IMG/VR virus record: IMGVR_UViG_3300003885_000024
Location: 1-32,682 of that record
Source: a virus
DNA length: 32,682 nucleotides
Strand: one strand, 5' to 3'
Position numbers and translations under genes: made by a program. Below, piece after piece: positions 410 to 32,399 of the stretch (position 1 is its first letter; every line of letters starts with the position of its first letter). The notes under the pieces were generated by a model. It saw only the letters and a program-made list of their open reading frames with translations. It was not told the origin of the DNA and made no database searches.

Positions 410-1425
410 TGGCAGCACCTCTTTCTGGAATACTAAGAAGTATCAACAGAAACAAAAATCGTCCTTTGAATATACTGATGGCCAACAATCACGAGGGCTA
501 CAGTGCAACCCTAGCAAAGACTGGTCATAACTTTTATGTTTTACAACATGCTAAATTTCATAAATGGAGCAACAAAGAAAGGTCTATTCCTTCTAACTTC
601 TTCTTTTTGGAAGGGAATGAAATTGCGCAACAATTAAAAACAGACATAGCATTTGATCTAGTTTTAACTCAAAACAGAATTGATCATTATCCGATTTTTA
701 TTCAACTAGCTAAACAGCTTAACTGCCCATTATTACAAATGGAACACACATTGCCATGGCCGGATTGGAACGACTCGACAACCGAGCGCATAGGACATCT
801 CGAATGTGATCACAACATCTTTGTTGCCGACTTTTCTGTTGGAGCATGGTTCCACGATTCCAAAGACCCAAATGTACAGATTATTCACCACGGCATGGAT
901 ACTGACTATTGGGATGGCTGGGTCGGCGGTGATGGGAAGATAATGACTGCTGTTTGGGATTACATAAAAAGAGATCGAATATGCGGCTTCTCTATATGGA
1001 AAGAGGTTACCAAAGAATTACAGGTCAATCCTTGGGGTGAAACACCCGGCCTATCAAAAATGGCCGACAGCACAGATCATCTTAGAGAACTGTATAGTAA
1101 TGCCTCCGTATTTCTAAACACCACCCTTTGGTCGTCTTGCCCATTCTCTCTACTAGAAGCAATGTCTGTAGGCTGTCCGATAGTGACAACAGCAACTACA
1201 TCCATACCAGAGTTTATAAAGAATGGAGTAAATGGGTTTATCACTAATGATCCAATAGAAATGAAGAAACATCTCGTAGAACTAATCGAAGATAAAGATA
1301 TGGCACTTGAGATTGGTGCTGCTGGAAGAGAAACTGTTCTGAAGCAGTTCGGACAAAAACAATTTATAGACGCATGGAATGAGGCATTTAGAAAAGTTTC
1401 TGAATGTCCAACTGGTAGATATTGA
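409..1425 (+). CDS. GT4-like glycosyltransferase
   Basis: 338 aa. The C-terminal half has the layout of a GT-B (family 4) glycosyltransferase: HGMDTDYW at 161-168 and, at 247-259, SLLEAMSVGCPIV, the usual Glu-containing donor-sugar site, followed by NGVNGF at 272-277. The N-terminal half (LNILMANNHEGY) fits the acceptor-side Rossmann domain. The region between residues 170 and 215 is shorter than in bacterial GT4 enzymes. Start and upstream stop overlap by one base. It heads a run of sugar-transfer-like genes on the same strand. Donor and acceptor cannot be told; virion or host-surface glycans and modified DNA bases are all possible. Confidence 0.8.
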   Translation: MAAPLSGILRSINRNKNRPLNILMANNHEGYSATLAKTGHNFYVLQHAKFHKWSNKERSIPSNFFFLEGNEIAQQLKTDIAFDLVLTQNRIDHYPIFIQLAKQLNCPLLQMEHTLPWPDWNDSTTERIGHLECDHNIFVADFSVGAWFHDSKDPNVQIIHHGMDTDYWDGWVGGDGKIMTAVWDYIKRDRICGFSIWKEVTKELQVNPWGETPGLSKMADSTDHLRELYSNASVFLNTTLWSSCPFSLLEAMSVGCPIVTTATTSIPEFIKNGVNGFITNDPIEMKKHLVELIEDKDMALEIGAAGRETVLKQFGQKQFIDAWNEAFRKVSECPTGRY

Positions 1426-1444
1426 TGAAATGGAGAAAATCAAT

Positions 1445-1915
1445 ATGAAATTGAACCTTGGTTGTGGACATGACATCCGTACTGGATATATCAATATTGA
1501 CAAAATACCACAAGGACAAGCATCGCCAGATATATACAGGCAGGGAGATATTCAGTCATTGGATTGGCTAGTTGAAGACGGTACTGTAGAAGAGATAATT
1601 GTTATTGATAGTTTAGAATACTTGCCAACAGCAGTGATTAAGATGGCTTTGATTAACTGGGCTAAAAAATTATCTGATGGAGGAACACTTAAACTTCTAG
1701 TGCCCGATTGTCATGCTATATCCAAAGCCTTTGCGATTGGTCAATTCAATCTTCAACAATATTCAAACATGATTCTTGGTACTCAAGAAGGGAACGACAA
1801 CAGACTGGCTGTTATAGACGCCACTACCCTTTTTGATATACTACAGGAATTAGGATTGACTATTCATCTTAAGAGATATGAAGGTGTTGCAATTTATGTA
1901 GAGGCAATAAAATGA
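1445..1915 (+). CDS. small SAM-dependent methyltransferase-like protein
   Basis: 156 aa from the ATG at 1445, chosen because GGAG lies 9 bases upstream and the protein then opens directly with the SAM-binding motif LNLGCG (residues 3-8) followed by GYINID. In-frame ATGs at 1379 and 1430 only add unconserved residues. DSLEYLP and GGTLKLLVPD fit strands 4 and 5 of a class I methyltransferase fold. At about 156 residues it is short for the family and may lack part of the substrate domain, so a non-catalytic Rossmann protein is possible. Its stop overlaps the next ATG (ATGA). The position between glycosyltransferases suggests a sugar-related substrate. Confidence 0.65.
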   Translation: MKLNLGCGHDIRTGYINIDKIPQGQASPDIYRQGDIQSLDWLVEDGTVEEIIVIDSLEYLPTAVIKMALINWAKKLSDGGTLKLLVPDCHAISKAFAIGQFNLQQYSNMILGTQEGNDNRLAVIDATTLFDILQELGLTIHLKRYEGVAIYVEAIK

Positions 1916-2676: not shown

Positions 2677-3443
2677 TAAAAGATAACGAAAATGTAACCA
2701 TTATTATAGCTACTCATAACAACTCAACAACCATTAAGCGAGCAGTTGAATCTGTAACAAAAGGTGTTCGTCCAGCAAATCAAGTTATAATCGGAGATAA
2801 CGATTCACAAGATGGTACATATGATATCCTTTGCGAAATGCTTGGTGCAAAATCCGTGACAATAGATGACAAAACTGGATTGCCGCCACAGTTTGAAGGT
2901 CAAATTGATGGAATACCAGTAAAGATTTTCAGGAAACGACTAAGCACTATAGGCAACACATTAAACATAGCTATGCAAATGAAATGGCAAGGTGTAACCA
3001 TATTCGGTTTCATGGACCCAACTAGTTGGTATGCTCCAGACAAAATATCGCAAGCGATAAGAGTTTTCAATGGTCACCAATCTATAGCATGTGTAGTTAG
3101 TGATTTCTATAATCACCATTCAGACGGCAGGACAGAAAGAGTCTTCAGATGTTCTTTTGACATGCAACAATTCTTAGCACATTTTCCGTATGACCGTAAT
3201 TTTTTGATTAGACAACAAGTATTTCCAAAGTTGAAAAGAGGTTTTGATGATCAAATGTCTGTCAGGGAGGATTACGACCTAATACTGAGAGTATCTGAGA
3301 TAGGATTGATTTATCACATACCGGTACCACTGCATCATAACACCATTTCTAGTATTGATGAAGATGATAGGCAGTCTATAACACAATGCGAAAATAGTGC
3401 TAGACAAATGGCAGCGAAAAGAAGGGGTCAACCAAGTGTCTAA
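2673..3443 (+). CDS. GT2-like glycosyltransferase
   Basis: 256 aa from the ATG at 2673, which overlaps the previous stop (ATGA); a GTG nine bases upstream is less likely. VTIIIATHNN (8-17) and IIGDNDSQDGT (39-49) are the two standard N-terminal GT2 motifs. The later FMDPTSWYAPDKI (113-125) sits where family members have a D-x-D-x-W metal and sugar site; the second Asp is absent, although the Trp and the P-x-K-I are kept. SVREDYDLILRVSEIG near residue 200 matches the acceptor-side ED motif. I take it as a diverged but probably folded GT2 enzyme. Confidence 0.72.
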   Translation: MIKDNENVTIIIATHNNSTTIKRAVESVTKGVRPANQVIIGDNDSQDGTYDILCEMLGAKSVTIDDKTGLPPQFEGQIDGIPVKIFRKRLSTIGNTLNIAMQMKWQGVTIFGFMDPTSWYAPDKISQAIRVFNGHQSIACVVSDFYNHHSDGRTERVFRCSFDMQQFLAHFPYDRNFLIRQQVFPKLKRGFDDQMSVREDYDLILRVSEIGLIYHIPVPLHHNTISSIDEDDRQSITQCENSARQMAAKRRGQPSV

Positions 3444-4053: not shown

Positions 4054-4924
4054 ACCTGAACTAAAGGAAGCGCTGCTTGCGCTAGGTTACAAAGAAGAAC
4101 AACTTACCGACGATCAAGGAAAGGGTCTAAAACGACCTGCGTTGCTTGATAAACTCAATGCACACAAACAGGTAGAAGAAGGTCTTATGATTATTGTTGA
4201 CGAACATGAAGATGATGATGTTGGCATAGCAGTTGTGCAAGACGAACAAGGTGAGCAGGAAAACTCAGAAGAAGTTCTACCAGAAGAACTTGATCCTCCA
4301 ACACCAAACGATCCAGGATGGACACAGTATGTGCTTGGGAAATTCCTAGAAGACGAGGTGGATGGCAAGAATCCTCGTGTAGAAGGATTGCGACGGGTGG
4401 CTGGGGAACTCGTTGGAGAACTTATGGAAGAAGGGTGTGACCTAATAGCAGCCCCGACTGAGGAAAACCGATTCAGAGCATGTGCAAAAGCGTGGGGAGT
4501 ATTCCTAACTCCAGATGGACATACGAAGCGATTTGAGGCACTAGCAGATGCCCACAGTGAGAACTGCTTTGAAGACTACGCTACATATCTAGTCGCTATG
4601 GCAGACACAAGGGCAAAAGGTCGAATGTATCGCAATGCTTTGTGTTTGAGGCGTGTTGTCTCTGCCGAGGAAGTCAGCAAGACTATGGGTGCCGCCATTG
4701 ACGTACAGAAGGGTGGTGCCATTCACACTAGCCAAATCAGCATGATCAGAATGATATCGGACCGCAACGATTTCGATATAGGCGAAGTGCTTAATAATTT
4801 GGGTATTAAATATGAACTCAATGAATCAACTGGGGATGTCAACTTACAGTCGTTGACTTACGAAGACGCTCTCGCTGCCGCCAAGAGTATGCGAGAAATT
4901 AAAGAAGCTAAGGAGACAAAGTAA
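4016..4924 (+). CDS. putative single-strand annealing (Rad52-like) protein with SAP-like N-terminus
   Basis: 302 aa. Residues ~11-51 (GKPELKEALLALGY...RPALLDKL) look like a SAP/HeH-type DNA-binding module. A very acidic linker (~58-100) follows. The core ~115-230 carries PRVEGLRRVAGELVG and ADTRAKGRMYRNALCLRRVVSAEEV; I associate these with phage annealing-type recombination proteins, in which a TARAEGRALRKAL-like stretch is typical. GGAG lies 7 bases before the ATG, inside the end of the previous gene. The next gene, overlapping by one base, looks like an ssDNA-binding protein, which supports a recombination or replication role. The family assignment is from memory. Confidence 0.5.
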   Translation: MTTKTKPPTKMGKPELKEALLALGYKEEQLTDDQGKGLKRPALLDKLNAHKQVEEGLMIIVDEHEDDDVGIAVVQDEQGEQENSEEVLPEELDPPTPNDPGWTQYVLGKFLEDEVDGKNPRVEGLRRVAGELVGELMEEGCDLIAAPTEENRFRACAKAWGVFLTPDGHTKRFEALADAHSENCFEDYATYLVAMADTRAKGRMYRNALCLRRVVSAEEVSKTMGAAIDVQKGGAIHTSQISMIRMISDRNDFDIGEVLNNLGIKYELNESTGDVNLQSLTYEDALAAAKSMREIKEAKETK

Positions 4925-5403
4925 TGGGAGACGAAAAAAAGTTTAGTAAGGGCTTTGTCTTGTACAAGGCAAGGGTGGATGGGAACGGCGCTGCTTCACA
5001 GTGGAATTTAGGATCAGACAAAGAATGTGTCTTCCTAGAAATGGCAAACCAAAAAGGCAAGGATGATAGCGGCAACGCTAGGTTTGACTGGGATAACAAG
5101 ATTCGTTTCAAACTTGGAGACGCAGATATCGGAGAGATTCTTTCAGTACTTGTTGGACTCCAGTCTGCTGTTGGCCCATTCGATTCAGCTAGTAAGAAAC
5201 ACAAGGGTCTATTCCATTCAAACCAGAACGGAAATGCTATCTTGTATTTCGGGAAGGATGATAACGGAAGGTTCAGAATTTATCTAAGTGTAAAACGTGG
5301 AGATACGAAGACAGTTGTGCAACACACACTCAGCAAGGGCGAAGCGTGTTTCCTTAGTACACTATTGCGTCGTGCTATAGAAGTGATGTACTTATGGGAT
5401 TAA
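4924..5403 (+). CDS. putative PC4/Whirly-like ssDNA-binding protein
   Basis: 159 aa; the ATG overlaps the previous stop (TAATG). The pattern of short beta strands (GFVLYKARVDGNGAASQW, KIRFKLGDADIGEILSVLVG, KGLFHSN, AILYFGKDDNGRFRIYLSVKRG) followed by a C-terminal helix (FLSTLLRRAIEVMYLW) is what I expect of a PC4/Whirly-type ssDNA-binding fold. I see no enzyme motif. Coupling to the annealing-like protein suggests the two act together on single strands. It is the last gene of the rightward run and overlaps the convergent gene by four bases. An alternative is an unrelated beta-rich phage protein. Confidence 0.45.
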   Translation: MGDEKKFSKGFVLYKARVDGNGAASQWNLGSDKECVFLEMANQKGKDDSGNARFDWDNKIRFKLGDADIGEILSVLVGLQSAVGPFDSASKKHKGLFHSNQNGNAILYFGKDDNGRFRIYLSVKRGDTKTVVQHTLSKGEACFLSTLLRRAIEVMYLWD

Positions 5404-5757: not shown

Positions 5758-6075
5758 TTATCCCCCTAGCTCTATCTGTTCTAATATGTCTCTTTGCCAA
5801 TGATCTCGGGTTATAATTAAAAAGTTCAATCCGTGTTTCTCATAGAAAGCTTCTTTCCTCTTAAGTTTATCATCTGAACGAACTTCCATCAAGCCATCAT
5901 ACTCAATCCACAAGTCGTAATCAGGTAGATAAAAATCCGATATACTACGACTTGGTTTTGGAAGATGTTTGTGTGGTTCATACTCGATGTCGTTCATCAG
6001 AAGCCAATCAGCAACATTTGCTTCAGACTTAGAATCGTAAGTTTCGCCGTCCAGTCCTATTTCTTTTCGCCACAT
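5758..6075 (-). CDS. small PD-(D/E)XK-superfamily nuclease-like protein
   Basis: 105 aa. The likely active-site residues are Glu18 (in SKSEANVADWL), Asp47 (DFYLPDYD), Glu58 (WIEYDG) and Lys70 or Lys72. The order E...D-x6-D-x3-E-x-D...K is that of small restriction-endonuclease-fold proteins such as DUF559/Vsr-like enzymes in phages. The canonical E-x-K is E-Y-D here, with lysines 12-14 residues later, so the catalytic set is somewhat shifted. AAGGTG lies 5 bases before the ATG. It lies downstream of the late terminator (6091-6133), so it depends on readthrough or a promoter of its own. Confidence 0.65.
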   Translation of the reverse strand: MWRKEIGLDGETYDSKSEANVADWLLMNDIEYEPHKHLPKPSRSISDFYLPDYDLWIEYDGLMEVRSDDKLKRKEAFYEKHGLNFLIITRDHWQRDILEQIELGG

Positions 6076-24120: not shown

Positions 24121-24152
24121 ATATTGATGATAAAAATAAGTGATTATACTAA

Positions 24153-24223
24153 CAGTCCTACCAAGAATCGAACTCGGACTTATTGGGCCAAAACCAATCG
24201 GGCTTCCATTACACCATAGGACT
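24153..24223 (-). tRNA. tRNA-Gln (UUG)
   Basis: Cloverleaf on the - strand: acceptor AGTCCTA/TAGGACT, anticodon stem ATTGG/CCAAT with loop TTTTGGC (anticodon UUG), T-arm CCGAG/CTTGG with TTCGATT loop, discriminator G as in tRNA-Gln. The D stem has one mismatch. CCA is not encoded. Confidence 0.9.
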
Positions 24224-24227
24224 AAAA

Positions 24228-24315
24228 CGGAAGATAGACGAATCGAACGCATGACGCTCATCACGTCACCCCGGTTTTCAAGACCGGTTGGGACTCCATT
24301 ATCCAGGTACCCTCC
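24228..24315 (-). tRNA. tRNA-Ser (UGA)
   Basis: 88 bases with the long variable arm expected of serine tRNAs (TGACG...CGTCA). The anticodon stem CCGGT/ACCGG closes loop CTTGAAA, giving anticodon UGA. The acceptor GGAGGGT/ATCTTCC uses two G-U pairs, and the T stem has one mismatch. Discriminator G, CCA not encoded. Confidence 0.9.
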
Positions 24316-24323
24316 AGTGCGCA

Positions 24324-24360
24324 CAAAAAAACCGAACAACCATCGAAGGATCGTCCGGTT
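24324..24360 (-). terminator. strong terminator-like hairpin just upstream of tRNA-Ser
   Basis: On the - strand AACCGGACGATC pairs with GGTTGTTCGGTT over 12 positions with several G-U pairs, loop of 7, followed by seven T. Only about eight bases separate the T run from the 5' end of tRNA-Ser, so tRNA-Ser and tRNA-Gln must come from readthrough or from a start inside this region. Confidence 0.75.
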
Positions 24361-24393
24361 CTGTGTGTTTGATTGTACGTGAATCTACATAGT

Positions 24394-24456
24394 CTACCCC
24401 AGACGGCCCTTTGACCGTTGATTACTGGATTGGGATGACTGTTGTTTTAGCTTCAT
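24394..24456 (-). CDS. possible 20-aa peptide
   Basis: ATG at 24456 with GGAG six bases upstream, encoding MKLKQQSSQSSNQRSKGRLG, a basic Gln/Ser-rich peptide. It is the only start with a good ribosome site in the ~290-base gene-free stretch 24316-24604. It could be a leader peptide or chance. Confidence 0.25.
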   Translation of the reverse strand: MKLKQQSSQSSNQRSKGRLG

Positions 24457-24519
24457 TTCGTTCTCCGTTTTGTGATTGCCCCTTACACACATCAGTCTAG
24501 TCAGTTTTGACGAGAGGTG

Positions 24520-24560
24520 ATAGACAATCTTACATACTTTTATACACAATCATAGACAAT
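24520..24560. repeat. 9-bp direct repeat ATAGACAAT, copies 32 bp apart
   Basis: Copies at 24520-24528 and 24552-24560, in the same orientation and about three helical turns apart, flanking TGTGTATAA on the - strand (a one-base variant of the putative late promoter motif). The arrangement looks like an operator pair around a promoter, but it is based on two copies only. The rest of 24361-24604 shows no gene. Confidence 0.35.
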
Positions 24561-24604
24561 AACATAGTCACTTCCATCTTTTTTTTGACGGTATTTCTAT
24601 CCAA

Positions 24605-24679
24605 TAGGCTTGGGGGGAGTCGAACCCCCGACTACCGGTCCCAGTGACCGGCGCTCTAACCCGACTGAGCTACAAGCCC
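24605..24679 (-). tRNA. tRNA with anticodon CUG by standard numbering, lacking U33
   Basis: The cloverleaf is otherwise perfect: acceptor GGGCTTG/CAAGCCT with one G-U pair, D stem GCTC/GAGC, anticodon stem CCGGT/ACCGG, T-arm GGGGG/CCCCC with TTCGACT, discriminator A. The seven-base loop is CACTGGG. Position 33 is therefore A, where nearly all tRNAs have U, and bases 34-36 are CUG (Gln). A discriminator A is not the Gln identity base, so the amino acid is uncertain. CCA not encoded. Confidence 0.8.
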
Positions 24680-24736
24680 TAAAGTCTATACTCGGAGTTT
24701 CACCGATACTATCAGTTTGGAAGCTGCTGTTAAACA

Positions 24737-25786
24737 CTACAGAGACACAACATTGCCATGAGGACGAATCAACTTCATTACATAATCATCCACACGTTTT
24801 TCCTGCCCATCAAAACGAGCAAACATAGCTGGCGTATGACTAACCCTTTTGGCAGCAAGAGCGAATGCCACACGATTTTCTCGATCTACAATACTAACAA
24901 ACTGGTGGTTGATTTCTTGTCTAATGTCGAAATAGCTAGACTCAAGAACTTCAGCTATAGCATTCAACTGATCGTGATATTCTTGATCTACCTCGTTCCA
25001 TACATCTTCTGTCACTTTGCCGTCTTGCATATTGTTCCAGATGGTTAATGGTGTCAAATTGGCCAACAAGGCACTTCTGCGAAAATAATCTTCAGACTTA
25101 ATTTTCACCCTAAGCCCGTTGTCGAATCGAATAACAAAACCTTCCATTTCAGAACCAGATACAGTTTTAATCTGACCACGACAATACCCAAGCCAATTAC
25201 GATCATAGGATTCGGTTATGGTAAATCCGAACTCTTTACTCCATTCCTCAACTTGCTCCCACTCGTATTCTTCTCCAGTATGTCTATTATAGGCAGCCAA
25301 TAGTACTAGGTCTTCCCTGTTGCCATAGTTCACTACGATCTTGGTCGCAGGACAGATAAGCTCAAACAGCAGCGTTACTTTGTCTGGCAACCCGGTCAGG
25401 TCGTATCGTTTCAGGAACTCTGTAGCCCATATTGCGCCAACGCTCTTGAACGAACCTCTGGTAGCTATTCGGTGTTGTCCACCATCTCTATAAAGGATAC
25501 CAAGCCATCCGTCTTGTTTTTTGAATATTCTGAATCCATCACGCCACGGAAGATTCCGCTCCTGTGTGTCTATTCGCTGGTTCATATTGAAGAATTTAGG
25601 GAAAGGTTGTGCGACTACTTCTCCCGTTTTTCTATTGTATATATTTCCACGGCTATTAAGGGTAATGTCGTCCCAGTGTTTGCAGTGATTCGCGTAGGTG
25701 TAGATAACAAGGTCTCCACGATTGTCACATCTGAGAACCTTCTGGCCTACAAGCGAATCTCTTATTTTTATGAATTCATGTTCCAT
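24737..25786 (-). CDS. rnlA: T4 Rnl1-type RNA ligase
   Basis: 349 aa from the ATG at 25786 (GGAG eight bases upstream); the longer frame runs into tRNA-Lys. Nucleotidyl-transferase motifs are in order: I, K90-Q-D-G (K90 the AMP-accepting lysine); Ia-like ATRGSF at 108-113; III, LLFELICP at 139-146 followed by KIVVNY; IV, EGFVIRF at 215-221; V, VKIKSEDYF at 227-235. Spacing and the C-terminal helical domain fit T4 RNA ligase 1, which reseals tRNA cut by host anticodon nucleases. It lies between tRNA genes, 20 bases downstream of tRNA-Lys(UUU). No 5'-kinase/3'-phosphatase partner is seen in the window. Confidence 0.9.
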   Translation of the reverse strand: MEHEFIKIRDSLVGQKVLRCDNRGDLVIYTYANHCKHWDDITLNSRGNIYNRKTGEVVAQPFPKFFNMNQRIDTQERNLPWRDGFRIFKKQDGWLGILYRDGGQHRIATRGSFKSVGAIWATEFLKRYDLTGLPDKVTLLFELICPATKIVVNYGNREDLVLLAAYNRHTGEEYEWEQVEEWSKEFGFTITESYDRNWLGYCRGQIKTVSGSEMEGFVIRFDNGLRVKIKSEDYFRRSALLANLTPLTIWNNMQDGKVTEDVWNEVDQEYHDQLNAIAEVLESSYFDIRQEINHQFVSIVDRENRVAFALAAKRVSHTPAMFARFDGQEKRVDDYVMKLIRPHGNVVSL

Positions 25787-25806
25787 TTTTATATCTCCAT
25801 AACAAC

Positions 25807-25878
25807 TGGGTCGGGTGGGACTCGAACCCACGACCAAAGGGTTAAAAGCCCCGTGCTCTGCCGCTGAGCTACCGACCC
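25807..25878 (-). tRNA. tRNA-Lys (UUU)
   Basis: 72 bases: acceptor GGGTCGG/CCGACCC, D stem GCTC/GAGC, loop CTTTTAA giving anticodon UUU, T-arm GTGGG/CCCAC with TTCGAGT, discriminator A. The top of the anticodon stem has one mismatch (position 27-43) and a G-U pair. CCA not encoded. It lies immediately upstream of the Rnl1-type ligase gene. Confidence 0.93.
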
Positions 25879-25880
25879 AA

Positions 25881-25964
25881 TGTGCGGGGCAGGATTCGAA
25901 CCTGCAAGTCCCAGAAGGGAAACGGGGTTACAGCCCGTCGAGCCACCAATTGCTCAACCCGCAC
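25881..25964 (-). tRNA. tRNA-Tyr (GUA)
   Basis: 84 bases with a long class II variable arm (CCC...GGG), as in bacterial tyrosine tRNAs. Acceptor GTGCGGG/CCCGCAC, anticodon stem ACGGG/CCCGT with loop CTGTAAC (anticodon GUA), T-arm GCAGG/CCTGC, discriminator A. Two bases separate it from tRNA-Lys. CCA not encoded. Confidence 0.94.
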
Positions 25965-25991
25965 GTCTACCAATTCAGTCACGAGACCAAT

Positions 25992-26064
25992 TACCCCGAG
26001 TAGGATTCGAACCTACACTGACATGGTTCTAAACCATGCGCCTCTGCCATTGGGCTATCGGGGC
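25992..26064 (-). tRNA. class I tRNA with anticodon UAG (nominal Leu)
   Basis: 73 bases: acceptor GCCCCGA/TCGGGGT, anticodon stem CATGG/CCATG, loop TTTAGAA (U33 present, anticodon UAG), variable loop of only five bases (TCAGT), T-arm GTAGG/CCTAC, discriminator A. A UAG anticodon reads the leucine codon CUA, yet bacterial leucine tRNAs have a long variable arm, as the other Leu tRNA here does. Charging is therefore uncertain. CCA not encoded. Confidence 0.85.
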
Positions 26065-26289
26065 TCAATTACCCATAGGATAATGCTTCTCTTCGTAATC
26101 ACCAACCACCAACACTAAAGACTCAAGAGATAATCGCTGAACAACAGTTGGCTTGTCTATGTTGCTGAGCAAATCAACGATCTCTAGCGACATATCGTAT
26201 TCATCACATGTGTGTACCCCGTTGGCACATAATTCTATCATCGTCATTTCGTGTATAGCCAATGCTTCCAATATTTCCTTTTGATCCAT
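26065..26289 (-). CDS. small phage protein, unknown
   Basis: 74 aa from the ATG at 26289 (AAAGG seven bases upstream); the longer frame to 26364 would run through tRNA-Leu. Acidic, mostly helical: DQKEILEALAIHEMTMIELCANGVHTCDEYD, then a helix (LSLESLVLVVGDYEEK). It has a pair of cysteines but no known motif. Its stop abuts the 5' base of the next tRNA, so processing of that tRNA would cut the message exactly at the end of the ORF. Confidence 0.6.
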   Translation of the reverse strand: MDQKEILEALAIHEMTMIELCANGVHTCDEYDMSLEIVDLLSNIDKPTVVQRLSLESLVLVVGDYEEKHYPMGN

Positions 26290-26304
26290 TTTTTTACCTT
26301 TCAA

Positions 26305-26386
26305 TACCCCTGGAGGGAGTCGAACCCTCAAGTCCTTTCGGACAGCGGAACTTAAACCCGCCACGTCGCCATTGCGTCACAGGGGC
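26305..26386 (-). tRNA. tRNA-Leu (UAA)
   Basis: 82 bases with a long variable arm (TGTCC...GGACT), acceptor GCCCCTG/CAGGGGT, anticodon stem GCGGG/TCCGC with loop TTTAAGT (anticodon UAA), T-arm GAGGG/CCCTC, discriminator A. It is a normal class II leucine tRNA and contrasts with the short-armed UAG tRNA about 240 bases away. CCA not encoded. Confidence 0.94.
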
Positions 26387-26445
26387 TAAAACCATTTCAT
26401 TTTTTGATAGTCGATGACGATATCAAATGCTATCCTAGTAGACAT
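26386..26445 (-). CDS. possible 19-aa peptide
   Basis: ATG at 26445 with GGAGG four bases before it, encoding MSTRIAFDIVIDYQKMKWF. The stop codon uses the first base of tRNA-Leu. The good ribosome site suggests translation, but the peptide is very short and resembles nothing I know. Confidence 0.35.
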   Translation of the reverse strand: MSTRIAFDIVIDYQKMKWF

Positions 26446-26612
26446 ATTTCCTCCGGTAGTATCCCGAAGGTATCCAACCACCATTCCTTCGGCTTATCAC
26501 GATGCTTTCGCCACGCCGTTTGTCCGCGACTTATACATTTTTCCTTACGATCCCTCTCCTGCTCAACCCATTCTCCGAATACGAACTTCTCGTTATCACT
26601 ATGCCCCCTAAT
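26430..26612 (-). pseudogene. coding-like frame without a normal start codon
   Basis: An open frame of about 60 codons whose translation looks like protein (FGEWVEQERDRKEK, KHRDKPKEWWLDTFGILPEE) but has no ATG or GTG in frame and a TTG only near the end. The first possible codon after the upstream in-frame stop region is ATT at 26612, which overlaps the stop of the preceding gene. The run AGGGGG at the junction would be a ribosome site or an indel-prone run. It may be a decayed gene, a +1 frameshift extension of the preceding gene, an ATT-started gene or a sequence error. Confidence 0.4.
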
Positions 26613-26832
26613 CCAACTCTATCTTTCGTGTCTTGCTATGCTTTCTTTTCTTTTTCTTAGTCTTATTTTTCTTTTTTTCTTCTTCAATAGTCGGAAGTAT
26701 TATGTCTTCTGGCATCTGTTTCATGTAGGTTTTACCAGGAGGTGGAGTATATAACTTATCTTCATTCTTGAAAATCTTGAATATAGTTCCTTTCTGTGCG
26801 TACTGACTTTGAAATATCCTGACACCAAACAA
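26608..26832 (-). CDS. Lys-rich small protein, TTG start or readthrough product
   Basis: 74 aa if started at TTG 26832 (GGA eight bases upstream). Hydrophobic/basic N-terminus (FGVRIFQSQYAQKGTIFKIF), then YTPPPGKTYMKQMPEDI and a highly basic C-terminus (KKKNKTKKKKRKHSKTRK). The frame is open for 11 further codons upstream (YSYGDLLDGIK), also protein-like, up to an in-frame TAG that ends the previous ORF. The natural start is therefore unclear: TTG, or readthrough of that TAG. The Lys-rich tail suggests nucleic-acid binding; no family is recognised. Confidence 0.5.
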   Translation of the reverse strand: MFGVRIFQSQYAQKGTIFKIFKNEDKLYTPPPGKTYMKQMPEDIILPTIEEEKKKNKTKKKKRKHSKTRKIELD

Positions 26833-26865
26833 TTTTATTCCGTCTAATAGGTCTCCATAGCTATA

Positions 26866-26997
26866 CTATGGGATCGATTGAAGCAATTCTACTAGATCAT
26901 CACTGTTTACCAGCAATCCTTCAAGTTCTTGAATGCTGCGACCTTTCAATTTCAAGCTAAAAAGAGCCTCTTGAATGTTTTTCTTACCAAACGCCAT
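26866..26997 (-). CDS. 43-aa ORF ending in TAG, in frame with the next gene
   Basis: ATG at 26997 encoding a compact helical peptide (AFGKKNIQEALFSLKLKGRS, IQELEGLLVNSDDLVELL). GGAAGA lies upstream of the ATG. The composition and the amphipathic helices look like a real domain, for instance a small helical module at the front of a larger protein. Its TAG stop is followed in the same frame, without another stop, by the Lys-rich ORF to 26608, giving a possible 130-codon protein if the TAG is read through or is a sequencing error. Confidence 0.5.
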   Translation of the reverse strand: MAFGKKNIQEALFSLKLKGRSIQELEGLLVNSDDLVELLQSIP

Positions 26998-27014
26998 ACT
27001 TATCTTCCCACAAC

Positions 27015-27281
27015 CTATCTGGACAAACTTTTGTATCTTTCAAGCAATCTAATAAGTCTGTCCGCATCTTGAAGCTTTATCATCGCACAGTCCCAATGAC
27101 CGTATTTACACTTGTATCCAAATAGATATTTGATTGCAATCCAGAGTCTACCGAAAAACCCGTGATACCGATTCAAAAAAACTGATGTATAAAGCTCAAC
27201 ATCATTCGGATCGTAAGCGTCTAACTTGAATCTCAGAGTATGTTCGTCAGTCTCACAGATACACTCAAAAAATTCACTCAT
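27015..27281 (-). CDS. conserved small phage protein, unknown function
   Basis: 88 aa from the second of two adjacent ATGs (27281), seven bases after AGGAGG; the ATG at 27284 would add one Met. The longer frame to 27326 runs through tRNA-Asn and is rejected. FFECICETDEHTLRFKLD at the start, VELYTSVFLNRYHGFFGRLWIAIKYLFGYKCKYGHWDC in the middle and DADRLIRLLERY at the end match a small family I know from many phage genomes without a role. Cys and His residues (CIC, CKYGHWDC) could bind a metal. Confidence 0.75.
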   Translation of the reverse strand: MSEFFECICETDEHTLRFKLDAYDPNDVELYTSVFLNRYHGFFGRLWIAIKYLFGYKCKYGHWDCAMIKLQDADRLIRLLERYKSLSR

Positions 27282-27296
27282 CATTTTTCCTCCTAA

Positions 27297-27369
27297 CTTA
27301 CCGGACGGGAGTCGAACCCGCGACATTCTCGTTAACAGCGAGATGCTCTGTCCACTGAGCTACCGGCAA
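27297..27369 (-). tRNA. tRNA-Asn (GUU)
   Basis: 73 bases: acceptor TTGCCGG/CCGGTAA, D stem GCTC/GAGC, anticodon stem TCTCG/CGAGA with loop CTGTTAA (anticodon GUU), T-arm GCGGG/CCCGT, discriminator G as usual for Asn. Its 5' end lies five bases after the 3' strand of the RNase P RNA P1 helix. CCA not encoded. Confidence 0.94.
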
Positions 27370-27374
27370 GATCG

Positions 27375-27580
27375 TATAGCCCTCATAGCAGGGATTCTGT
27401 TTGAGTCTCCGTCATTTATCTATGCCGCTACCCGACCATTATGGTGCTGCTCACCCACTAGGTCTATTTGCGTTGCAGCCTCCGTGGTTACAGGCTCGTA
27501 TCAACGCCTACCACGTTAAGCAGTGCTGTCCCTAGCTTCCTCAGTACGGTCTTACAGTACCGCGACGGAGCGGGGCTATA
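27375..27580 (-). ncRNA. rnpB: RNase P RNA, compact phage-encoded form
   Basis: About 206 nt on the - strand, lying exactly between tRNA-Pro and tRNA-Asn. Helices visible: P1 TATAGCCC (27580-27573) with GGGCTATA (27382-27375); P2 CTCCGTC (27570-27564) with GACGGAG (27413-27407); P3 CGGTAC (27562-27557) with GTACTG (27547-27542). P4 pairs AGC-U-AGGG (27537-27530) with CCCUGCU (27393-27387), including the single bulged U that is the hallmark of the catalytic core. Conserved single-strand blocks GAGGAAG, AAATAG, GATAAATGAC and ACAGAA are in the right order. Bacterial RNAs are ~350-400 nt, so peripheral domains are reduced. It is expected to cut 5' leaders from pre-tRNAs with a protein subunit, not seen here. 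Confidence 0.9.
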
Positions 27581-27581
27581 A

Positions 27582-27653
27582 TCAGGGTGGTAGGATTCGA
27601 ACCTACGACTTCTCGGCTCCAAACCGAGTACTCTTCCACTGAGCTACACCCTG
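27582..27653 (-). tRNA. tRNA-Pro (UGG)
   Basis: 72 bases: acceptor CAGGGTG/CACCCTG (C1-G72 and discriminator A, as in proline tRNAs), anticodon stem CTCGG/CCGAG with loop TTTGGAG (anticodon UGG), T-arm GTAGG/CCTAC with TTCGAAT. Its discriminator base is one nucleotide from the 5' end of the RNase P RNA P1 helix. CCA not encoded. Confidence 0.93.
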
Positions 27654-29203: not shown

Positions 29204-29432
29204 CTTGAATACCCTTATTCAAAAGAAGGTGTGCGAACATCGCCTTCTTCATAGGTCCAATATCATTATACACACAACCCTTTACCCAACGTCCCTCAAC
29301 AAAAGATAAATAACACTTAGTGGCAACACAAATCTCTTTTTGTGTCTTGCCATCAATTTCAGTATCCAACCAATAATTTGAAGTTGCACTGTTTGTCACT
29401 TGGCCACAGTTTGTACATATTGCTATCGGCAT
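29178..29432 (-). CDS. small zinc-ribbon-like protein
   Basis: 84 aa from the ATG at 29432 (GGGTAG upstream); an ATG at 29444 lies deeper in the preceding gene without a ribosome site. The opening PIAICTNCGQVTN has a C-x2-C knuckle, and later cysteines (EICVATKC and KGC) could complete a metal site. The middle strand YWLDTEIDGKTQKE suits a zinc-ribbon of the kind in which a second pair of ligands follows a beta hairpin. Role unknown; nucleic-acid binding is a guess. Confidence 0.6.
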   Translation of the reverse strand: MPIAICTNCGQVTNSATSNYWLDTEIDGKTQKEICVATKCYLSFVEGRWVKGCVYNDIGPMKKAMFAHLLLNKGIQDGSQSEEK

Positions 29433-29800
29433 TTTTCTACCCATTTCGCAGCAGAAGCGATATCTAAAGATATGAATGGAAGCTTGATAGCATGTGGGAG
29501 AACGCGAAGTATATTATCAGCACCGGCTGGATTACAAGAATGTATAACACACGGTGTTTCTTTGTTCTTTGTAAACGAAGCAATAAACTCTGCAAGTTTA
29601 TATCCGGTGTTATTTGCAAATGAATCAACAAACTCTTCTCCTCCTAGATCATGGTCTAGAAAGAGTAGGTCATACTTGTTGTTTACAACAAGACTTGTGC
29701 CTTCTTCTACGGTTTCGGCATGATCTATGTTATGGCCAATCAATTCTCGCCGGAACTTAACCATACGATGCTTATTGTCTTCCAGAATGAAAATCTTCAT
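29423..29800 (-). CDS. receiver-like protein of the cyclic-phosphate-processing (cREC) type
   Basis: 125 aa. MKIFILEDN (acidic pair E7, D8), then YDLLFLDHDLGG with D49 and D51 around H50, TGYKLAEFI, and CVIHSCNPAGADNI. The DHD and the HS-x-NP motifs set it apart from phospho-accepting CheY domains and match the family I know as the cyclic-phosphate-processing receiver domain, proposed by comparative genomics to act on RNA ends. The chemistry is a prediction in the literature, not shown here. Its position between RNA ligase genes and tRNAs fits an RNA-repair role. The ATG overlaps a tiny ORF and starts after AGGA. Confidence 0.75.
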   Translation of the reverse strand: MKIFILEDNKHRMVKFRRELIGHNIDHAETVEEGTSLVVNNKYDLLFLDHDLGGEEFVDSFANNTGYKLAEFIASFTKNKETPCVIHSCNPAGADNILRVLPHAIKLPFISLDIASAAKWVEKCR

Positions 29801-30206: not shown

Positions 30207-31172
30207 CTAGCTCTTGCTCAGATACCGATTGCCTACCACTTTAAGCTGAACTCTTCCTATCTTTCGGTCTGTTCGCTCATGAACTGGTTTCACAACAACC
30301 CCTTCGAGATAATGAGACGCCCCAGGCCATCTACTATCTCCCTCAGCGAATTCAAGAATCTGCTTTTTATTGAAAGCACCTCTGTGAACCAGCGGTACCC
30401 ATTGTAAAGGAGCACCAACCTTATGTGCTACGTCGAAGTCTAACCACTGATCGCCTTGTAAAATATCAAAAGCAGCAAAGAATATACGACCATCTGTCGA
30501 TCCATATTTCAAATCCTGAACCTGACCGAATACTTCACCGTACACTGTCAACCCTTGGTTATGTCGCAACCAAGATTCCAGGGCCATGTTCTGTTGTAGA
30601 ACTTTCCACCAAAGGTTTTTCGGGTCTTCCTTCTTCCAGAATTTACGCGAACCACAGAATATCACATCATCGACACATGAGAATCGAGCATTTGCTCCGT
30701 GTATCTTTTCTGTGACAACAACCTCTTCACCTTCTGTAAAATTATCAGAATACTTACGGAAATTAAGTACATCGTATGTTGGGAAAAAACCCTGCGGTGG
30801 TGTCACATTGTCTCCACCTGTAGTTAAGTGACCACGCACCTGTGGTTCGTAATGAATAATCCCAAGTCGCTCCATGAAGTCATCACCAAGATTCGCATCA
30901 GCCGGTGCTGTAATCAATAGTCCAACAGACCATTCGCCTCGCAGCTTACGAGCCTTAATACGACGGTGCTTGCCCAAGAACTCAAATTCCTTTGTCTCAG
31001 GAACAATGCTGTCTGGAGGGATATAGATAGCAAGATCACCATCACTCCAATCCGCTGTACGAACGGCGCATTGAAAATCCCCAACCATAACAAGGCTGAG
31101 GGAATCAGCATTTGGGTGTTGCTCAAGTTTGACCTTGACAACATCACAGGTGTGTTCGGCTACTTCAAACAT
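30207..31172 (-). CDS. RNA ligase of the Deinococcus DraRnl/Rnl5 type
   Basis: 321 aa. The N-terminal ~100 residues (HTCDVVKVKLEQHPNADSL, AIYIPPDSIVP) form an OB-like domain as in the Deinococcus ligase. The catalytic half has motif I at 155-160 (E-K156-IHGA, K156 the AMP-accepting lysine), Ia-like CGSRKFW, III YGEVFG at 211-216, IIIa FFAAFDI at 231-237, IV LEGVVVKP at 289-296 and V LKVVGNRYL at 310-318. The set is complete, so activity is expected. This type seals 3'-OH/5'-PO4 nicks, often template-bridged. It differs in design from the Rnl1-type enzyme at 24737-25786. The ATG overlaps the upstream stop (TAATG). Confidence 0.88.
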   Translation of the reverse strand: MFEVAEHTCDVVKVKLEQHPNADSLSLVMVGDFQCAVRTADWSDGDLAIYIPPDSIVPETKEFEFLGKHRRIKARKLRGEWSVGLLITAPADANLGDDFMERLGIIHYEPQVRGHLTTGGDNVTPPQGFFPTYDVLNFRKYSDNFTEGEEVVVTEKIHGANARFSCVDDVIFCGSRKFWKKEDPKNLWWKVLQQNMALESWLRHNQGLTVYGEVFGQVQDLKYGSTDGRIFFAAFDILQGDQWLDFDVAHKVGAPLQWVPLVHRGAFNKKQILEFAEGDSRWPGASHYLEGVVVKPVHERTDRKIGRVQLKVVGNRYLSKS

Positions 31173-32049: not shown

Positions 32050-32399
32050 TGGTGGAGATGTTGGCATCCGAGAGCCAAGTCCAGAAATCATTCCAATTCT
32101 GCTTCTACGTGCATAGTCAGATATTTAATTCTCGAAGCCACGAACGCCAACTGACGGGCTTTCGTTTTTCCACGTCCGACTATTGCTTCGCTTTGATCAG
32201 GTCAGATATCAGATCATAGCTAGCCCACTGGTCATCGTCGCACGGAATAGCAGGCGTCTTCCGATTGACTAGCTACTTACGCAGCCATTTTGAAGCGAGA
32301 TTCGCCGTTTAAGCGTTTTGTCAGTTGTTTTACGAGGCCCACTGACAACCTCGGCACGCAACATTATCTTCCTCGATCCTGTCAAAACCTTTCATCCCC
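32050..32399 (-). ncRNA. ssrA: tmRNA (transfer-messenger RNA), complete
   Basis: About 350 nt on the - strand. The 5' end GGGGATG pairs with CATCTCC at the 3' end, followed by A-CCA, so CCA is encoded. The 5' domain has GGTTTTGACAGGATC and GTGCCGAGG...GGCCTCGTAAAAC, the tmRNA hallmarks. The 3' domain has TGACTATGCACGTAG, GGAATGATTTCTGGA and a T-arm TTGGC/GCCAA. A short reading frame in the middle ends GCT GCG TAA, encoding ...NGESRFKMAA, a plausible proteolysis tag; the codon in the E. coli GCA resume position reads TTA. It is expected to rescue stalled ribosomes with SmpB from the host. Confidence 0.93.

Follow-up and report, generated by a model that had tools for sequence, protein, structure and literature searches.

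The stretch of viral DNA analysed here (IMG/VR record IMGVR_UViG_3300003885_000024, 32,682 nucleotides, referred to below as the window) carries on its minus strand, at positions 27375 to 27580, the gene for a phage RNase P RNA. The RNA measures 206 nt from one strand of helix P1 to the other and is supported by Rfam, by a phage covariance model (R1) and by covariation. It is tightly enclosed by tRNA genes of the same strand. Its 5' end adjoins a tRNA-Pro gene (UGG, 27582-27653) at a distance of 1 nt, and a tRNA-Asn gene (GUU, 27296-27370) begins about 4 nt past its 3' end. Six more tRNA genes of the same cluster (two for Gln, one each for Lys and Tyr, two for Leu) are found at 24152-26386 (minus strand). 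Further RNA-related genes, likewise on the minus strand, encode a tmRNA (32050-32399; RF00023, 120 bits), an RNA ligase of the T4 Rnl1 type (24737-25786; PF09511, 60.8 bits; phrog_562), a second RNA ligase (30207-31172; PF09414, 84.7 bits; phrog_968) and a protein with a cREC (cyclic-phosphate processing receiver) domain (29423-29800; PF20274, 48.4 bits). A phosphoribosyltransferase gene is also located near the RNA. As a side observation, the proximity of the cREC protein to the two RNA ligases and the tRNA cluster suggests a tRNA repair module. Note that the phage is represented by a 32.7-kb fragment and that its RNA-processing gene set is visible only for that part.

The window has been binned as contig C4 of a 2.04-Mb bacterial metagenome-assembled genome (MAG), and this could speak for bacterial sequence having been misassigned to phage contigs. 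However, the MAG has a separate full-size rnpB gene (RF00010, 240.9 bits) as well as rnpA elsewhere, while the window contains phage tail genes, among them that for a tape-measure protein of 1,678 amino acids (PF10145, 71 bits), and is collinear with viral contigs of 160 and 56 kb. In addition, a copy of the RNA resides in the complete genome of an isolated phage, Stenotrophomonas phage DLP6, which contradicts misassignment, and in records bearing terminase genes (matches in 16 of the 36 other records with the RNA, many of which are fragments). Misassignment can thus practically be dismissed.

The conserved sequence blocks follow each other in the window in the order GAGGAAGC, GCAACGCAAATAG, GGGTAG, AGATAAATG and ACAGAA or, in RNA letters, GAGGAA, GCAACGCAAAUAG, GGGUAG, AGAUAAAUG and ACAGAA, just as in known RNase P RNA. 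The Rfam model RF00373 (RNaseP_arch) matches over the exact span 27375-27580 with 33.3 bits (E 4.2e-8). This lies under the curated cut-off of 84, and the RNA goes unseen at the Rfam gathering threshold. The same applies to several relatives that reach 45-66 bits with RF00010 against a cut-off of 100; curated Rfam thresholds miss all copies tested, including the one in the cultured phage. With regard to membership in clan CL00002, it is therefore the score threshold that fails and not the structural features, as the blocks GAGGAA, AAAUAG, AGAUNAAUG and ACAGAA are present in the correct order. Model R1 gives 167.4 bits for the window RNA, with the caveat that this RNA belongs to its training set, and the folding z-score of -2.7 is weak by itself.

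The secondary structure comprises a complete catalytic core; all positions given refer to the minus strand. In P1, the 5' strand UAUAGCCC (27573-27580) and the 3' strand GGGCUAUA (27375-27382) form 8 bp, a perfect pairing of both RNA ends that closes at exactly 27580 and 27375. P2 (UCCGUC at 27564-27569 with GACGGA at 27408-27413, 6/6 pairs) is a pseudoknot crossing P4 and shows covariation although it is outside the model. P3 is a hairpin at 27542-27562 (helix 1 of the covariation analysis). P4 is formed by the 5' strand AGC(U)AGGGA (27529-27537) with its single bulged U and the 3' strand UCCCUGCU (27387-27394), which is preceded by ACAGAA at 27395-27400. The CAAAUAG block and P15 occupy 27426-27472 (helices 5-7, covarying), with the P15 apical loop GGUGAGCAG at 27447-27455 and a flanking helix at 27470-27472/27426-27428. 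The specificity region (27476-27528) is strongly reduced and consists of the covarying helix P5 (CAGC/GCUG, 27525-27528/27476-27479), J5/7 (ACUGCUUAA, 27516-27524) and a P7-like helix of 5 bp (27511-27515/27483-27487) that encloses one inner hairpin. Just 45 nt separate the two P5 strands, and these form one compound hairpin. In bacterial RNase P RNA, P9-P14 holds the tRNA elbow. The window RNA has no counterpart of P9-P14 and thereby lacks this feature of the type A specificity domain. The conserved strand AGAUAAAUG lies at 27413-27421. P18 is absent as well; it is also missing from relatives L004, L294, L318 and L373 and is present in L039, L051, L107 and L397 (DLP6). The reduction is thus specific: the specificity domain has been trimmed to a single compound hairpin, and P18 has been lost in many members and kept in some. 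Inspection by eye for a P6 helix showed that 4 bp (CUGC/GCAG) are possible in L039, L051 and L107, and elsewhere no more than 2-3 bp; such a helix is not claimed.

When 50,697 phage records were searched by BLAST with the window RNA, nothing real emerged, and homologues were reached only by pattern scans that were grown with the family and by the covariance model. A search pattern describing a P18-less RNase P RNA returned one second copy, L004, directly upstream of a tRNA-Lys gene within an 18-gene tRNA/tmRNA cluster. Motifs common to this copy and the window (CACTGCTTAA after P5, GGTGAGCAG in L15) then led to more. Through these, named phage records were reached, first DLP6 and the 634- and 595-kb phages and afterwards those of 735 and 642 kb. 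Most matches of loose patterns were due to chance and were removed by motif or model. R1, derived from ten phage copies with P2 excluded, found copies on which it had not been trained, with scores of 57-162 bits. When applied to three huge phages chosen by accession alone, it was positive for two (484 and 462 kb) and negative for the third (636-kb LR756504); R1 was also negative in the cultured jumbo phages G, Atu_ph07, CcrColossus and RaK2 and in an Alishewanella phage. A final pattern scan added 20 copies on contigs of up to 527 kb. In total, iterative searching resulted in 37 distinct RNAs, i.e., the window RNA and 36 homologues, ranging from 185 nt (L004) to more than 250 nt and borne mostly by large or giant phages, as a rule within or close to a group of tRNA genes. 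The uncultured bearers include phages of 735, 642, 634, 595, 484 and 462 kb. In cultured phage DLP6, the RNA (RF00010, 54.7 bits) occupies an unannotated stretch before a tRNA-Arg gene. Members found by patterns were partly selected for the pattern motifs; the pairing statistics given below are independent of those motifs.

Several records deserve mention in their own right. In L295 (IMGVR_UViG_3300033182_000991, about 838-1511, minus strand), the P3 loop contains a 623-nt insert with an ORF resembling an HNH endonuclease, and P1, P2 and P3 are still able to pair across it. In L361 (722-905, minus strand), the core of the RNA is intact and the 5' strands of P1 and P2 were not found upstream; the gene may be truncated, permuted or replaced. 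L294, a contig of unsettled viral status that carries a cluster of 13 tRNAs, has a match to the bacterial small SRP RNA above the cut-off (5828-5917, minus strand; RF00169, 49.9 bits), located downstream of its RNase P RNA at a distance of about 480 nt. L373 encodes, within a phage tRNA cluster, a tRNA with a CUA (amber) anticodon (4924-4996), labelled tRNA-Pyl by ARAGORN and possibly a suppressor. DLP6 has a match to the permuted tmRNA family (L397 1866-2087; RF04321, 136.8 bits) that is missing from the annotation of the record.

In the alignment of the 37 sequences, 95.8% of the 1,155 model cells are paired, and in 30 of 33 pairs both positions have changed. Covariation scores 0.693, as compared with 0.171 for shuffled sequences and no more than 0.093 for slid partners. 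P1, P2, P3, P4, P5, the P7-like helix and P15 all covary heavily. Eight pairs make up P4, seven of which covary; 98.6% of its cells are paired, and the bulged U is found in 37/37 members. A helix table made by hand agrees, with the caveat that its strands were picked by eye. As the alignment had been fitted to the structure, two tests outside the model carry particular weight. P2, which the model does not contain, has 93.1% of its cells paired and a score of 0.774 versus 0.212 for shuffled sequences. P1, which lies wholly outside the model, has 7 bp or more in 33 of the 35 members that could be tested versus 31% of swapped partners, with a mean of 10 bp versus 6 for swapped flanks. These findings are complemented by the behaviour of R1, which was built from phage sequences only and also picks, with 36-53 bits, rnpB genes in the MAG and in relatives of it; two such chromosomal loci were checked and are canonical RNase P RNAs (RF00010, at least 240 bits). 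By kind, the phage RNA is RNase P RNA. That it is an active ribozyme is only inferred, because there are no transcript, cleavage or RnpA-binding data. The most decisive evidence that the window RNA is real is the set of 36 homologues, in which almost all pairs show compensatory change, together with the P1 helix of at least 7 bp in 33/35. The existence of the RNA is near certain and its homology is shown; 27375-27580 (minus strand) holds a complete RNase P RNA.

An earlier note, made from sequence alone, had proposed a phage-encoded RNase P RNA of 206 nt at 27375-27580 on the minus strand. It had drawn P1, P2, P3 and P4 with a single bulged U, and listed conserved blocks in the correct order. 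All of this held: P1 closes at exactly the ends given, the helices covary, the U is invariant, and the phage origin is supported by the tape-measure protein (PF10145) and by synteny with the 56- and 160-kb viral contigs. It had suggested a covariance-model check with the bacterial models; the Rfam match obtained was to RNaseP_arch, significant by E value and below the cut-off. The observation it had named as a refutation, homologues in which P1, P2 and P4 are not kept by compensating changes, was looked for, and the helices proved to be kept by such changes. Its description of a strongly reduced RNA that has shed peripheral domains and kept the catalytic core also stands, amended in that the specificity domain survives as one hairpin and P18 is lost only in many members.

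The distribution of the gene is patchy, as the relatives found via the RNA ligase, L012-L015, have no RNase P RNA. The same is true of MW202545, which shares the tRNA-Pro/tRNA-Asn pair by BLAST. L013 is syntenic with the window phage (69% identity over 4 kb) and contains an empty site at 3280-3429, where merely 3 nt separate the same tRNA-Pro and tRNA-Asn genes and an intervening RNase P RNA is lacking. The RNase P RNA gene thus comes and goes within tRNA arrays. This patchiness and the empty site in so close a relative, together with a 5' end that is broken or odd in two members, would fit a passenger, i.e., a captured bacterial rnpB decaying without function in a tRNA array. However, only selection on the fold can produce compensatory changes in 30 of 33 pairs across 37 sequences, and the passenger explanation is virtually ruled out. 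In a tree, the phage RNAs stand apart from seven bacterial RNAs (UFBoot 97), and the bacteria join beside the P18-bearing L039, L051 and L107. We make no claim of a single origin because seven RNAs sample bacteria too narrowly.

Two of the huge phages encode an RnpA protein of their own, at L398 1465-1812 (634-kb phage, 44.3 bits) and L424 1435-1803 (642-kb phage, 52.5 bits), both above the TIGR00188 equivalog cut-off of 38.35. The two proteins are 52% identical to each other, resemble solved RnpA in sequence and have the RNR motif (RNRIKRLMRE and RNRVKRLMRE, respectively). Near rnpA in the 642-kb phage there is an ORF that by eye resembles a tRNA nucleotidyltransferase; it has no NCBIfam hit. 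No RnpA turned up in the remaining phage records that were checked, where host RnpA is presumably used. One could argue that the RNA is a decoy or inhibitor, an RNase P-derived core that binds pre-tRNA or the RnpA of the host and thereby blocks the host enzyme. The loss of the specificity domain, the RNase P possessed by the host and the lack of RnpA in most records checked are in line with this. Against it stand the well-conserved core nucleotides with the P4 bulged U in every member, the frequent location inside phage tRNA clusters, which need RNase P, and the two phages that bring RnpA as well. In a pure decoy, there would be no need for the active site to persist. We consider a decoy very improbable.

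A tRNA starts 16-30 nt past P4, i.e., right behind P1, in 7 of 17 members examined, and the RNA is sandwiched between tRNAs in the window, L441, L445 and L464. Several giant-phage copies are not adjacent to tRNAs. The RNA of L107 is immediately followed by a hairpin and T run resembling a terminator, so that some copies probably are separate units. In bacteria, the GGU of loop L15 binds the 3' end of the tRNA. This GGU is retained in most members, including the window, and is lacking in L15 of DLP6. CCA is encoded by none of the eight window tRNAs (24152-27653) versus all 26 DLP6 tRNAs examined. Since encoded CCA and L15 GGU do not match up in either phage, a CCA-L15 contact remains uncertain. 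In principle, the RNA could have an altered substrate choice, cutting mainly tmRNA, mRNAs or host transcripts and leaving tRNAs to the host enzyme. Relaxed choice is expected where elbow recognition is lost, several giant-phage copies lie away from tRNAs, and tmRNA, two RNA ligases and the cREC protein are encoded nearby in the window. Nevertheless, tRNA adjacency in many diverged members suggests tRNA processing, and most members keep the L15 GGU. This alternative also appears highly improbable.

The reading we prefer, and regard as likely, is that of a genuine phage RNase P of reduced form that serves to mature the tRNA arrays of the phage and usually relies on host RnpA; catalysis, expression and benefit are inferred. 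Judging from its position between tRNA-Pro and tRNA-Asn, the RNA would be co-transcribed with the phage tRNA cluster. Because it directly adjoins or is sandwiched between tRNAs, it should be freed from the precursor during their maturation. RNase P also makes the cut that creates the 5' end of tRNA-Asn, and this would leave a few nucleotides beyond the 3' end of the RNA. The RNA adopts the standard fold of the catalytic domain, with P1, the P2/P4 pseudoknot and bulged U, P3, P5 and P15, as shown by covariation. It would bind RnpA, usually that of the host; for at least two of the huge phages, gene content suggests that the protein comes from the phage itself. The putative enzyme may then cleave the leaders of phage pre-tRNAs and possibly of pre-tmRNA. 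The specificity domain that reads the tRNA elbow is missing; the core and loop L15 would recognize substrates by their acceptor stem and 3' end. So reduced an RNA can work in principle, given that the C-domain (catalytic domain) of Escherichia coli and Pyrococcus furiosus RNase P RNA shows catalysis in vitro when isolated (PMC5839562). The need for a phage copy is not obvious, because the MAG around the window already has RNase P; a likely benefit would be tRNA maturation that is independent of host rnpB during takeover of the cell.

RNase P is a near-universal ribozyme, an ancient RNA enzyme that trims tRNAs. If our reading is true, some phages supply the initial step of tRNA maturation themselves, and the boundary of virus-encoded functions moves. 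With this family, nature also offers near-minimal RNase P RNAs that are rich in covariation and lack a tRNA-elbow platform, which renders the minimal RNA need of bacterial-type RNase P directly testable, and with the copy in DLP6 that Rfam misses, an isolate for such tests exists. A bolder reading, which we also deem probable with catalysis inferred, is an unrecognised class of RNase P in large tailed phages: an RNA of about 190 nt that is close to catalytic-domain-only, works with host or phage RnpA, is matured inside the tRNA arrays it processes and forms a complete viral holoenzyme in the largest phages.

The earlier view that an RNase P RNA gene is very unusual in a tailed phage must be amended, since the RNA recurs in many large tailed phages, though no earlier viral report was found. 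No viral RNase P RNA came up in the open-access literature searched. Subscription papers and preprints were outside its scope, so that priority is uncertain. Huge phages are known for translation genes, tRNA sets and tmRNA (Al-Shayeb 2020, PMC7162821); the main text of that study does not mention RNase P, ribonuclease P or rnpB, and phages are likewise absent from a 2026 paper on the evolution of RNase P. Among cellular RNAs, which in bacteria typically measure 340-420 nt, bacterial type A (RF00010) shares P1-P5, P15, the P2/P4 pseudoknot, the bulged U, the conserved blocks and, with some phage members, P18. In contrast, the phage RNAs start at 185 nt, have a one-hairpin specificity domain without P9-P14 and often lack P18. 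RNase P RNAs of CPR bacteria (PMC8172020) are of the bacterial type and lack P12, P13, P14 and P18 in a few genomes, but are chromosomal genes of cellular genomes and not viral; this likeness does not rest on sequence comparison. Type P/T of Pyrobaculum and other Thermoproteaceae (Lai 2010 as cited in PMC4919922) retains the catalytic domain with nearly no specificity domain and no P18, features that the window RNA shares. Type P/T is archaeal and cellular, whereas the phage RNAs have their own J5/7 (ACUGCUUAA) and L15 (GGUGAGCAG) and are accompanied by bacterial RnpA in two phages. This RnpA and the one isolate, which infects a bacterium, are what bears on lineage and protein partners in an analysis without a tree against archaeal RNAs or a search for archaeal subunits. 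The phage RNA is new by its bearer and a new reduced variant by structure, closest in plan to the Pyrobaculum form and apparently working with bacterial-type partners.
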